DNA from: an uncultured Lachnospiraceae bacterium
GTDB lineage: Bacteria; Bacillota; Clostridia; Lachnospirales; Lachnospiraceae
Direction of reading: 5' to 3'
DNA: 55,425 bases
Assembly: GCA_905235415.1 (NCBI GenBank)
Contig: CAJOKX010000008.1
Location: 1-55,425, forward strand
Shown here: piece after piece, positions 10,846-28,990 of the stretch
Layout: every line of letters starts with the position of its first letter
Position numbering within the stretch: the first letter of the stretch is position 1
Program-made: the position numbers and the translations under genes
The notes under the pieces: generated by a model
What the model saw: only the letters and a program-made list of their open reading frames with translations
What the model was told of the DNA's origin: nothing
Database searches by the model: none

Positions 10846-10878
10846 GAATACGATCGACAGGGGGGAAGACAATTGTTT

Positions 10879-11272
10879 GATTCCTATGCCTCGATGATCA
10901 GAGGAGAGGGCAAGCAGGGCATAGGAAACTGCAGAGTTGTTGATTCTTATGCCTCGATGGTAAGAGGAGAGGGGAAGCAGGGCATAGGAAACTGCAGAGT
11001 TGTTGATTCCTATGCCTCGATGGTAAGAGGAGAGGGGAAGCAGGGCATAGGAATCTGCAGAATTGTATGATTCCTATGCCTCGATGGTAAGAGGAGAGGG
11101 GAAGCAGGGCATAGGAATCTGCAGAATTGTTTGATCCCTATGCCCCGATGGTAAGAGGAGAGGGGAAGCAGGGCATAGGAATCTGTAGAATTGCTTGATC
11201 CCTATGCCCCGAGGATCAGAGGAGAGGGGGAGTGGGGCATAGGGATCTCTATGACTCTTTGATCCCTATGCC
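10879..11272. repeat. Tandem hairpin array, period 63-64 bp, about 6 units plus partial
   Basis: Unit starts (GATYCCTATGCC) at 10879, 10942, 11005, 11069, 11133, 11197, 11261; each unit carries an inverted arm GGCATAGGAAWC/GGGCATAGGGATC. Confidence 0.92.
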
Positions 11273-11358
11273 TCCATTCCCGGTGATCAGTCAATATATG
11301 GTGCATGGCATTTCTCCGGCGACATCTATGAGGTGGAAGTGAGAGAAAACAGGCAGAA

Positions 11359-24104: not shown

Positions 24105-24803
24105 ATGGGAGCGGCAATGCAGAAAATCGCTGTCATCAGGAGCGATTTCCCGGAGAAGTTCGGGATTCCCAGACAGAGCGGACTGATCGAAGAACTGAAG
24201 GCGGAGATTCTCTTTGAAAAGCCCTATCAGGATCCAAACTGTGTGGCGGGTCTGGAAGAATTCTCCCACATATGGCTGCTCTGGGAATTCTCCGGAAACC
24301 TGGAAGGCGGATGGTCGCCTACGGTCATTCCGCCGCGCCTTGGAGGAAAGATCCACAAAGGGGTATTTGCGACGCGCTCTCCGTTCCGGCCAAGTCCGGT
24401 CGGTCTGTCCTGCGTGAAACTGGATCAGATCGAGATGCGCCCGGGAGCGGGCCCGGTTCTGCATGTGTCGGGCGCAGATCTCAGGGACGGTACGCCCATC
24501 TATGATATCAAGCCCTATATCCGCTATACAGACTGTCATCCGGACGCGGTGAGCGGATTTGTCGATACACTCTCAGACCACCGCCTGGAGGTGGACTTTC
24601 CGCAGGAGCTTCTGGAAAAGCTTCCGGAGGACAAGCGGACCGCAGCAGTCAGGATCCTCGCGCAGGATCCCAGACCTGCTTATCAGAAGGATCCGCAGCG
24701 CCGGTACGGAACCGCGTTTGCCGGCTGGGACATCCGGTATCATGTGAAGGATGGGGTGCTGCGTGTCTGTGAAGTCGTTCCTTACAGAAAGCCGGAGCAC
24801 TGA
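24105..24803 (+). CDS. trmO: tRNA (t6A37) N6-methyltransferase TrmO / TsaA family
   Basis: FGIPRQSGLIEELKAEILFE, FSHIWLLWEFSGN, GGKIHKGVFATRSPFRPSPVGLSCVKL, GTPIYDIKPYIRYTD. Confidence 0.9.
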   Translation: MGAAMQKIAVIRSDFPEKFGIPRQSGLIEELKAEILFEKPYQDPNCVAGLEEFSHIWLLWEFSGNLEGGWSPTVIPPRLGGKIHKGVFATRSPFRPSPVGLSCVKLDQIEMRPGAGPVLHVSGADLRDGTPIYDIKPYIRYTDCHPDAVSGFVDTLSDHRLEVDFPQELLEKLPEDKRTAAVRILAQDPRPAYQKDPQRRYGTAFAGWDIRYHVKDGVLRVCEVVPYRKPEH

Positions 24804-24966
24804 CTTCGGGAGCATTGAGATTCGGAGCACTGATAACCGAAGCACTGAGATCCGGAGCCCTGACATCGGGAGCACTGACATCGGGAGCACTGAGATCCGG
24901 AGCCTGATATCCGGAGCCTGACGTTCGGAGTACTGAGATCCGGAGCCTGAGATCCGGAGCACTGAC
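24794..24966. repeat. ~15-bp minisatellite, about 12 degenerate units (cggagcactgagatc)
   Basis: Runs of gagcactgacttcgg / gagcattgagattcg / gagcactgataaccg / agcactgagatccgg / agccctgacatcgg ... agcactgacc. Confidence 0.88.
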
Positions 24967-24968
24967 CT

Positions 24969-26054
24969 ATGGAGTATGCAGAATACATCGATAAAAATGA
25001 ATATGTTATCCTGTACCGGTTATACGGGGAAGGCGGCGTAGCGGAGATCCCGCAGACGATCTGCGGAAAGACGGTAAAGATCCTCGCGGACCATCTGTTT
25101 GCAAACGAGCCGTCTGTCCAGTATGACAAAGGGCAGATCCGGCGCTGTGCGCTGAATGGTCTCCCGGGGGAGGAGAGCCCGGAAGATAAGGCAGCAGACA
25201 GGGCAGAAGACACGGCAGAAGATCCGGCAGCAGACACGGCAAGCCCTGTCCGGGAAAAGGCACTGTGCGGGGCATCTGTCGAGATGATCCGGATTCCGGA
25301 GGGCGTGGAGGCGGTCGGCAATTACGCCTTCTATGGATGCCAGAACCTGAAGGAGGTTTCATTTCCATCGACGATGAAGCGCATCGGCTATGGGATGTTC
25401 AACGGGTGCGGCAGGGTGCGCCGGCTGGAGTTTCATCTGGAGGACAATGGAGATCGCAGGGCGGACATTCCGTGCAGCGAGCAGACCCCGCCGATTATGA
25501 AAGAAGTGCTGGACGCTGTGTCTGACAGAATCGAGGCCGTCGTCCGGTGCGGCGCGCAGGAGCTGTGGCGTCTGACCTTCCCGGATTATTACGAAGAGGG
25601 CAGGGAAAATACCCCCGCCCGCATCATTGAGATCGTCTATCACGGGACGGGCTATCAGTACCGCAACTGTTTTCTGAACCGGAGGATCCAGCCCGGAAAA
25701 TACGATGAGGTATTCCCGTATGCGCAGGCACAGGAGAGTACGGATACCTGCATCTCCATCGCGCGGAACCGTCTGCGCTGTGCGCCGGAGCCGGCGGAAA
25801 AATGGATGAACAGATACATCGAATATCTTCGATCTGAAGAGAGGGCGCTGATGGAGGCGGTCCTTTCCGACACGGAACATGATCCGGTCGGGGAGCTGAA
25901 GATCCTAAGCTGTGCCGGATTCTTTACATCGAGCAATATCGATTCATTTATAGAAACCGCATCGCAGCACAGGCGCTCTGATGCAGTCAGCTTCCTGATG
26001 AATGTGAAGCATCAGCAGTTTAGCTCCGCGCGCGCGGGCAGATACGAACTATAA
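24969..26054 (+). CDS. BspA-type leucine-rich repeat (LRR_5) protein
   Basis: GGVAEIPQTICGKTVKILADHLF..., VEMIRIPEGVEAVGNYAFYGCQNLKEVSFPSTMKRIGYGMFNGCGRVRRLEF; no signal peptide. Confidence 0.75.
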   Translation: MEYAEYIDKNEYVILYRLYGEGGVAEIPQTICGKTVKILADHLFANEPSVQYDKGQIRRCALNGLPGEESPEDKAADRAEDTAEDPAADTASPVREKALCGASVEMIRIPEGVEAVGNYAFYGCQNLKEVSFPSTMKRIGYGMFNGCGRVRRLEFHLEDNGDRRADIPCSEQTPPIMKEVLDAVSDRIEAVVRCGAQELWRLTFPDYYEEGRENTPARIIEIVYHGTGYQYRNCFLNRRIQPGKYDEVFPYAQAQESTDTCISIARNRLRCAPEPAEKWMNRYIEYLRSEERALMEAVLSDTEHDPVGELKILSCAGFFTSSNIDSFIETASQHRRSDAVSFLMNVKHQQFSSARAGRYEL

Positions 26055-26075
26055 AGAATAAACCCGGGTGGGCCT

Positions 26076-27452
26076 ATGGATGTGAGAGAGGACATCGGGC
26101 GCAGATTTACGGATGTTTCGATCGACATCCTGACTGCGAGCCGCAATGAACTGTATATGGATCAGCACTACCTGGCGCTTGCGCTGGGAGGGCTGGAGTT
26201 TGCGGTCACGACGCAGATAGAGGGGATCGGGACGGACGGAAATGTTCTTGCCGTCCATCCGAAAGCGCTCGCGGATCTCTACCGGACAAGCCGGATCGCG
26301 GTCAACCGGATCTTTCTCCATCAGGTCTACCACTGCCTGTTCCGTCACATTTTCAAGCGGATCCGTCCGCAGAAGGAGATCTGGATGCTCTCGTGCGACA
26401 TCGCGGTGGAGCTTCTGATCGACAGCCAGGACAACCGCTCCACAAGGGCGCCGAGAAGCCGGCTTCGGGAAAATGTGCGGCAGGAACTTAGCGCTTCGCT
26501 GCATGTCCTCAACGCGGAGGGGATCTACAGGGTCCTGACAGACAAGCCCTGTGACCCGGCCAGGATCAGCGCCCTCATGCAGGAATTCTGTGTCGACGAT
26601 CACAGCCTGTGGCCTGCGTGGAGCCTGGATGAGAAACGGCCCCATCTTCCGCCGAAAAGTCTGCTCCTGAAAAAGAAATGGGATGATATCTCTGCGAAGA
26701 CGCAGACGGATATGGAAAGCTTTTCCTCAGAGGCCGCCGCCTCTTCCGGGGATCTTCTGGAGGAGACCCGGATCGAAAACCGTGAGCGGATTTCCTACCG
26801 CTCATTTCTGCGCAAGTTTGCGGCGATCCGGGAGGAGATGCACATAGACATGGATTCCTGGGACAGTATCCTCTATACGTTCGGACTGTCGATGTATGGC
26901 AACATGCCGCTCATAGAACCGCTGGAGAGCCGGGAGGTCAAAAAGATCGACGAGTTCGTGATCGTGATCGACACGTCCATGTCGGTTTCGGGCGCCCTGG
27001 TGCACAGTTTCCTGGAGCAGACCTACAGCGTCCTGAGCGAGTCAGAGAGCTATCTGCACAAGGTCCATATCCGGATCCTGCAGTGCGATGAGCAGGTCCT
27101 GTCGGATGTAAAGATCACATCGCAGGAAGAGCTGGCCGCCTATATGGATCATTTCCGTCTGACGGGAGGCGGCGGCACCGACTTCAGACCCGCGTTTGAA
27201 TATGTGAACCGGCTGATCGGCGAGAATCAGTTTCAGGACCTCCGGGGGCTTCTTTATTTTACAGACGGCAAGGGGATCTATCCGAAGAAAAAGCCCCCCT
27301 ATGAGACAGCCTTTATCTTCTGCGAGGAAAAATGTGATGCGGGAGGTGTTCCGCCCTGGGCGATCCGCCTGGTCCTTCCCAGGGAAGATACCAAAGTCGA
27401 TGAGAAAGAACTTGGCAGCGCCCGGTTTGTGTGGGCGGAGGAGCAGCTATGA
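26076..27452 (+). CDS. DUF2201-type putative metallopeptidase/vWA-like protein
   Basis: FLHQVYHCLFRH in the N-terminal metallopeptidase-like region; C-terminal MIDAS-like VIVIDTSMSVSG and LTGGGGTDFRPAFEYV. Confidence 0.85.
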   Translation: MDVREDIGRRFTDVSIDILTASRNELYMDQHYLALALGGLEFAVTTQIEGIGTDGNVLAVHPKALADLYRTSRIAVNRIFLHQVYHCLFRHIFKRIRPQKEIWMLSCDIAVELLIDSQDNRSTRAPRSRLRENVRQELSASLHVLNAEGIYRVLTDKPCDPARISALMQEFCVDDHSLWPAWSLDEKRPHLPPKSLLLKKKWDDISAKTQTDMESFSSEAAASSGDLLEETRIENRERISYRSFLRKFAAIREEMHIDMDSWDSILYTFGLSMYGNMPLIEPLESREVKKIDEFVIVIDTSMSVSGALVHSFLEQTYSVLSESESYLHKVHIRILQCDEQVLSDVKITSQEELAAYMDHFRLTGGGGTDFRPAFEYVNRLIGENQFQDLRGLLYFTDGKGIYPKKKPPYETAFIFCEEKCDAGGVPPWAIRLVLPREDTKVDEKELGSARFVWAEEQL

Positions 27453-28990
27453 ATATCAGACGCGCAAAACAGGAGATCATGAATACCATCGAGGCCTATC
27501 TGGAGAAGGACGAGTACGGGGACTATAAGATCCCGGAGATCCGGCAGAGGCCGGTGCTTCTCATGGGACCTCCCGGAATCGGCAAGACGCAGATCATGGA
27601 ACAGATCGCCGGGGAGAGCGATCTGGCGCTGGTTGCCTACACGATCACGCACCATACCCGGCAGAGCGCAGTGGGGCTTCCGTACATAACAAAGAAGATC
27701 TACGGGGGCAGGGAATACCAGGTTACGGAATACACGATGAGCGAGATCATCGCTTCGGTCTGCGATACCATGGAAGCCTCCGGCAAGAAGGAGGGGATCC
27801 TGTTCATCGACGAGATCAACTGTGTCTCGGAGACGCTCGCGCCGACCATGCTGCAGTTTTTGCAGCAGAAGACCTTCGGCAACCAGAAGGTTCCGCAGGG
27901 ATGGATCATCGTCTCTGCCGGCAATCCGCCCGAGTACAATAAGTCTGTCCGGGACTTTGACGTGGTCACGCTCGATAGGGTGAAGGTGATCGACGTGGAC
28001 CCGGATTTCGAGGTGTGGAAAGCGTATGCGTACGAGGCCGGTATCCACAATGCAGTGATTTCCTATCTGGACATGCACAGGGAGAACTTCTTCCGCTGCG
28101 AGAGTACGGTGGACGGAAAGCGCTTTGTGACCGCCAGAGGCTGGGAGGACCTGTCCCAGATCATCTGCGCCTATGAGCGGACCGGCCGGAAGGTTGACAC
28201 AGAGGTCGTTGTCCAGTACCTGCAGTATCCGAAGATCGCGCAGGATTTCGCCAACTATCTGGAACTGTTCTATAAATACCGCAGGGACTACCATGTGGAC
28301 AGCATCCTGTCCGGAGAGATTCCGGAGGAGACGCTGAACAGACTTCGGTACGCGCCGTTTGACGAGCGTCTCCAGATCGTATCGCTTCTGCTGGCGCGGC
28401 TGTGCGGAAGCTTCAGGCAGGTGCGCGCATCTGACAGGGAAGTCTCCCACCTGTATTCATTTCTCAGATCCTGCAGGGAGGGGGAGGGAAATGAAGCCTC
28501 CGGGACGTTTCAGGGCGCCGCGCGCTATGAAGCGCTTCTGAATGACCTGAAGAAGACGGTGCGCGCGCGCATCGATGCAGGGCAGAATGAGAAGGAACTG
28601 AAGGAAGAGTACAGGGGCGTATTCCGGACCCTGGAGGAATGGCTTCCTGCAGTGCAGCGTGCGCCAAAAGAGGAAGCCTGGGAGATGCTCCGCAGCAGAT
28701 TCTCCGGGGTGCGCGATGACCTGGAGGCGCAGATTCAGAGCGCATCGGAACTGCTGGAATATGCGTTTGACTTCATGGAGGCCGCCTTCTCAGAGAGCCA
28801 GGAGATGGTCTTCTTTATCACGGAGCTTTCCGCCAATGCAGACGCCATGTGGCTGATCGGGGAGACGGAGTGTCCGCGGTATTACCGCTACAACAAGGCG
28901 CTTCTGTTTGAGGACAGAGGCGCGGAGATCAGAAAGCAGCTGGATGAGATCCGCTCGGAGATGAACGGCGCACTTCCGGATCAGCCCTGA
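27449..28990 (+). CDS. MoxR-type AAA+ ATPase
   Basis: VLLMGPPGIGKTQIMEQIA Walker A; GILFIDEINCVSETLAPTMLQFLQQKTFG Walker B; IVSAGNPPEYN sensor. Confidence 0.92.
   Translation: MNIRRAKQEIMNTIEAYLEKDEYGDYKIPEIRQRPVLLMGPPGIGKTQIMEQIAGESDLALVAYTITHHTRQSAVGLPYITKKIYGGREYQVTEYTMSEIIASVCDTMEASGKKEGILFIDEINCVSETLAPTMLQFLQQKTFGNQKVPQGWIIVSAGNPPEYNKSVRDFDVVTLDRVKVIDVDPDFEVWKAYAYEAGIHNAVISYLDMHRENFFRCESTVDGKRFVTARGWEDLSQIICAYERTGRKVDTEVVVQYLQYPKIAQDFANYLELFYKYRRDYHVDSILSGEIPEETLNRLRYAPFDERLQIVSLLLARLCGSFRQVRASDREVSHLYSFLRSCREGEGNEASGTFQGAARYEALLNDLKKTVRARIDAGQNEKELKEEYRGVFRTLEEWLPAVQRAPKEEAWEMLRSRFSGVRDDLEAQIQSASELLEYAFDFMEAAFSESQEMVFFITELSANADAMWLIGETECPRYYRYNKALLFEDRGAEIRKQLDEIRSEMNGALPDQP

Follow-up and report, generated by a model that had tools for sequence, protein, structure and literature searches.

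Does an LRR gene lying directly upstream of a DUF2201-type vWA gene and a MoxR-like AAA+ ATPase gene belong to the same machinery, and if so, what might its product do? The locus lies in the window, by which we mean the whole 55,425-nucleotide stretch of DNA analysed here. The initial annotation had proposed an LRR/vWA/MoxR trio in which the LRR protein could act as client, adaptor or sensor, and all three open reading frames are indeed present on the + strand:

24969..26054, + strand, BspA-type LRR protein with a C-terminal domain, the third component (361 aa; PF13306 LRR_5, E 2.6e-12)
26076..27452, + strand, DUF2201-type vWA protein (458 aa; Pfam DUF2201, E 6.8e-13)
27449..28990, + strand, MoxR-like AAA+ ATPase (513 aa; Pfam AAA, 3.6e-8; AAA_5, 7.6e-8)

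The LRR and vWA genes are separated by 21 nt, and the ATPase start (ATG 27449, opening a conserved N-terminus, MNIxRAK, in the relatives) overlaps the vWA stop by 4 nt. Overlap or a spacing of <=30 bp between the vWA and AAA genes was seen in 86 of 111 flanked loci. No transmembrane or signal-like stretch was detected by hydropathy in the trio proteins, and searches of Pfam, NCBIfam and PADLOC matched no effector or signalling domain in any of the three. No Rfam family was found in the window, in which sigma-70-like and terminator-like sites were no commoner than in shuffled sequence.

A conserved three-gene module

We sampled 299 genomes of the same family (Lachnospiraceae), representing 298 genera. 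A strong ATPase match was obtained in 158 of them, and a profile of the third protein's C-terminal domain matched 111, every one of which also encoded the ATPase (111/111; Fisher p about 1e-44). The 47 ATPase genomes without a match to this profile include a divergent clade in which the third gene lies downstream and the profile is weak. Among 116 distinct loci with flanking sequence, the vWA gene was present in 111, the third gene nearby in 105 and both in 104, with the third gene lying upstream in the same orientation in 95 loci and downstream in 7. It was located elsewhere or not found nearby in L040, L068 and L106, and in L063 and genome G119 it is kept though it lies away from the vWA/ATPase pair. 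The proposal had been staked on the LRR gene being co-conserved with the pair, and these counts bear it out: the trio is a conserved module. Named hosts among the best 80 loci include Coprococcus comes, Blautia, Anaerostipes, Oscillibacter and Faecalibacterium, and in a phylum-wide sample the module was present in 7 of 399 genomes, four of them from its own family, making it rare outside the family.

The tree distances of the ATPase, the vWA protein and the third protein correlate at 0.89-0.92, and still at 0.85-0.90 with rpoB regressed out (permutation p 0.001); within clade A, with rpoB removed, the values were 0.51-0.79 (genome G043 was left out of these correlations on account of its anomalous rpoB branch). 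In clade A the ATPase distances track those of rpoB (r 0.79), so the ATPase has been passed on mostly by vertical descent in that clade. Of the three proteins, the third evolves fastest. In a same-genus relative (L049), where the trio adjoins the same CarD-like and TrmO genes as in the window, identities are 38% for the LRR protein, 63% for the vWA protein and about 62% for the ATPase, compared with about 70% for the flanking CarD-like and TrmO genes.

An association with defence genes or prophages, which had also been suggested, was rejected. The trio lies among housekeeping genes, such as TrmO, response regulators and genes of folate, nucleotide and transport functions, PADLOC matches were few and scattered among the 143 neighbours, giving no enrichment of defence genes next to the trio, no trio match was found in IMG/VR, no full-length trio match was found on plasmids, and the phage search gave no link either. 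Seven strong matches in a phage collection fell in faecal 'Bacteriophage sp.' records, which are short unannotated contigs (MT837836, MT837937, MT835935 and others; L211); one such record that we examined is labelled UNVERIFIED, and the module in these contigs is probably contaminating bacterial DNA. We also considered whether a phage MoxR partner might be a DUF2201 protein, and dropped the idea on finding that the adjoining gene in Vibrio phage phiKT1024 was not vWA-like by eye. A MntP-like manganese efflux gene lies a few genes from the trio, on either side, in L031, L032, L034, L039, L046 and L060; as a fourth part of the module it was discarded, being near the trio in just 6 of the 116 loci.

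Architecture of the three proteins

The ATPase and the vWA protein carry the following features:

26319..26348, + strand, degenerate metallopeptidase motif HQVYHCLFRH of the vWA protein (His retained, catalytic Glu lost)
26952..27377, + strand, vWA domain with intact MIDAS residues (D299-S301-S303, T368 and D397 invariant)
27566..27589, + strand, Walker A, GPPGIGKT (G40, P42, G43, G45, K46 and T47 invariant)
27797..27814, + strand, Walker B, ILFIDE (L118, F119, D121 and E122 invariant)
28436..28987, + strand, C-terminal part of the ATPase, ~180 aa past the matched AAA domains (aligns in relatives; no Pfam match)

With an AAA+ core bearing intact Walker A and B motifs and an adjacent vWA protein with an intact MIDAS, the two have the make-up of a MoxR AAA+/vWA pair. 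AAA and AAA_5 are present in all 39 ATPase relatives; as to placement in the MoxR clade, AAA_5 scored above its cut-off, bpMoxR was below cut-off in the window ATPase and weak in 32 of the 39, and AAA_3 was not significant. The ATPase is single copy in its own genome.

The model of the vWA domain matches the NorD VWA and MDN1 MIDAS domains (Foldseek). DUF2201_N scored under its cut-off of 23.2 in the window protein (20.8 bits, E 3.2e-4) and was matched at E<=0.01 by 38 of 39 family members. What had been read as an HxxxHxxxxxH metallopeptidase region is in fact HQVYHCLFRH (H82, H86, H91), an HExxH motif with Gln (Q83) in place of Glu; H82, H86 and D108 are invariant among relatives. A working metallopeptidase is not borne out, the catalytic Glu being lost in 112 of 113 trio vWA proteins, whereas 13 of the 15 strong DUF2201 matches that lie outside the trio retain HExxH. 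To judge from these residues, the DUF2201_N-type domain of the trio has probably lost catalysis and may retain metal binding. The sole relative with an intact HExxH in its vWA protein is L049:6572-8038, which belongs to the window's own genus. PHROG 1314, labelled HNH endonuclease, matches residues 19-418 of the DUF2201 vWA protein (E 4e-26), and that label looks wrong.

The third protein comprises:

25002..25439, + strand, LRR units with a variable linker between them (residues about 12-157; Pfam, AF2 and structure matches)
25182..25241, + strand, acidic insert, a 12-bp x 5 tandem repeat within the LRR gene (residues 72-91; not conserved in relatives)
25461..26015, + strand, unnamed C-terminal domain, a beta part followed by a helical bundle (residues 165-349; conserved in alignments of relatives)
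26016..26051, + strand, predicted-disordered C-terminal tail ending RYEL-COOH (pLDDT 40-62)

The LRR is thus the front half only of this protein, and the back half is an unnamed domain that ends in a conserved tail. The AF2 model is confident (mean pLDDT 88.8) and consists of a short LRR block, the beta part, the helical bundle and the disordered tail. In structure comparisons the LRR part resembles solved BspA-like proteins such as TpLRR, and LRR_5 (PF13306) was found in 26 of 26 relatives, with no Pfam family other than LRR. A strongly hydrophobic segment was seen in none of 105 homologues, judged by hydropathy, so the secreted or surface character of BspA-like proteins is not evident here. 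The C-terminal domain, whose beta part has the family consensus FPEYYEExxENTPARI...HGSGxxYRxCF, gave no convincing match to a Pfam family or PDB chain.

A tail end of the form [FYM]x[LF]-COOH occurs in 95 of 106 distinct third proteins, against 22 of 1119 background ORFs, and the usual family form is (K/R)(K/R)x[FY]x[L/F]-COOH, with two basic residues mostly preceding. A tail so conserved, although predicted to be disordered, is what one would expect of a short docking motif. The remaining 11 third proteins have deviant tails, several with 1-6 extra residues, suggesting that a free carboxylate may not be essential. In 4 of the first 40 loci the third protein is only 113-146 aa long and consists of the helical part and tail. 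L051, L055, L056 and L062 are paralogous modules whose third protein has lost the LRR, and at least G028 and G133 carry, elsewhere in the same genome as such a paralogue, the full LRR version as well. Since the LRR-less paralogues retain the domain and tail, these are the constant part of the protein and the LRR is an optional, variable one.

The acidic repetitive insert that the initial annotation had singled out proved to be a local minisatellite. It is missing from the same-genus relative, and loops at this position, though mostly acidic, differ in length or do not occur at all. The window is minisatellite-rich, with several repeats within coding sequence (31 TRF rows over 1-55425). About 12 degenerate 15-bp repeats (CCGGAGCACTGACAT, with one more near-match elsewhere in the genome) fill the TrmO-LRR gene gap at 24792-24966, a gap of just ~30 bp in the same-genus relative, and positions 10871-11274 hold ~6 copies of a 64-bp repeat (no indels, 91% matches), each bearing 12-bp inverted arms (GATTCCTATGCC/GGCATAGGAATC).

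Adaptor, client or conflict system

The three proteins very probably form one molecular machine, and from the sequence comparisons we infer a physical complex. The reading that we prefer, and hold with about even confidence, is a MoxR-like AAA+/vWA remodelling machine, chromosomal and transmitted mostly by vertical descent, in which the third subunit is a tail-docking LRR adaptor. As NorQ does for NorD, the ATPase ring would drive the vWA protein; the C-terminal domain and [FY]x[L/F]-COOH tail of the adaptor would dock at the vWA MIDAS, at the AAA ring or at both, a proposal made by analogy with NorQD, and its variable LRR part would recognise and present the client. This reading is supported by the 104 complete loci, the one-way co-occurrence, the distance correlations beyond rpoB, the conservation of the tail, the LRR-less paralogues that retain domain and tail, the intact MIDAS and Walker motifs, the NorD fold match, the housekeeping-like neighbours and the same place beside TrmO in the same-genus relative. 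It is weakened by the deviant tails and by the three loci in which the third gene is elsewhere or not found nearby.

The main rival makes the LRR protein the client, which the MoxR/vWA pair would fold or disassemble via its tail and which would do its cellular work alone. A dedicated client would suit both the strict one-way co-occurrence and the fastest evolution of the third protein, and residues of clients are the usual ligands of vWA MIDAS domains; the LRR-less paralogues, however, with a helical domain and tail alone, resemble a docking unit more than an effector, and we regard this role as possible but rather unlikely. That the trio is instead a ternary anti-phage conflict system with the LRR as sensor seems improbable. 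It would share the MoxR, vWA and third-component grammar set out by Kaur et al. 2020 (PMC7159879), and its patchy presence (158/299) and fast-evolving third component would fit, but the proteins show no effector domain, the neighbours are not defence genes, the clade A ATPase largely follows rpoB, plasmids and IMG/VR lack the module, and the bpMoxR match is under cut-off.

An active metalloprotease/ATPase machine degrading LRR-bound targets is very unlikely: the DUF2201_N match and the invariant H82 and H86 would favour it, yet the Glu has gone from nearly all trio members while persisting outside the trio. We give almost no credence to the last alternative, three neighbouring genes with no functional link; bacterial genes often show short, operon-like spacing, but co-occurrence, co-evolution and locus counts contradict it, as do L063 and G119, which retain the third gene away from the pair. 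What stands of the first proposal is a MoxR-like/vWA pair with a dedicated, co-conserved and co-evolving LRR partner; a working metallopeptidase, a special acidic insert, an NLR-like design and a defence link are not supported.

Tentatively, and with somewhat less than even confidence, we suggest that the trio represents an undescribed class of AAA+ adaptor in gut Clostridia, in which a MoxR/vWA motor with a non-catalytic zincin-like domain would engage a fast-evolving LRR adaptor via a near-universal C-terminal peptide. The module occurs in around half of the genera sampled from a major family of gut bacteria. Its conserved tail offers a sharp and cheap handle on the recruitment of partners by MoxR/vWA motors, a matter not yet settled for AAA+ proteins of this class.

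Relation to known systems

No published description of the trio was found in the open-licence literature, and an earlier description elsewhere is possible. A close parallel is NorQ-NorD, which likewise combines an AAA+ ring with a vWA protein that has a MIDAS, an extra N-terminal domain and a matching VWA fold (PMC9976466, PMC13036017). The VWA domain of NorQD reaches with a finger into the AAA+ pore. Its MIDAS probably grips an acidic patch on the client and is not needed for NorQ binding (PMC13036017, PMC9976466). NorQ-NorD differs in working without a dedicated LRR third subunit and in that the NorD client is known (cNOR). RavA-ViaA and CbbQ-CbbO share the two-protein MoxR/vWA logic but are not known to have an LRR partner (PMC7159879).

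The MoxR-vWA ternary conflict systems of Kaur et al. 2020 (PMC7159879), with VMAP, iSTAND, FtsH and beta-propeller third components, resemble the trio in that MoxR, vWA and third component are encoded together; the third component here is instead an LRR plus an unnamed domain with a conserved tail, and no effector or signalling domain and no defence context was found. The MoxR-vWA ternary systems listed in that paper and its follow-up (PMC8195603) have other third components, none of this LRR/tail type in the passages covered. DUF2201/AAA+ pairs elsewhere in Bacillota have the same vWA family and, in several loci, an adjoining AAA+ gene, but mostly keep HExxH (13/15), and the AAA gene seen lies on their upstream side. 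Over the 1.5 kb read, the C-terminal domain was absent from all of those that lie outside the trio.

The NLR-like sensor/ATPase/effector design that the initial annotation had entertained does not fit: the trio ATPase is AAA_5/MoxR-like and not a STAND NTPase, the BspA-type LRR is a separate polypeptide, and no effector domain was found. SspB, which serves ClpX, joins a folded recognition domain through a flexible linker to a short conserved C-terminal docking peptide for the AAA+ ring. The third protein of the trio is unrelated to it, and the likeness, one of layout only, is the arrangement that an LRR adaptor with a docking tail would share.
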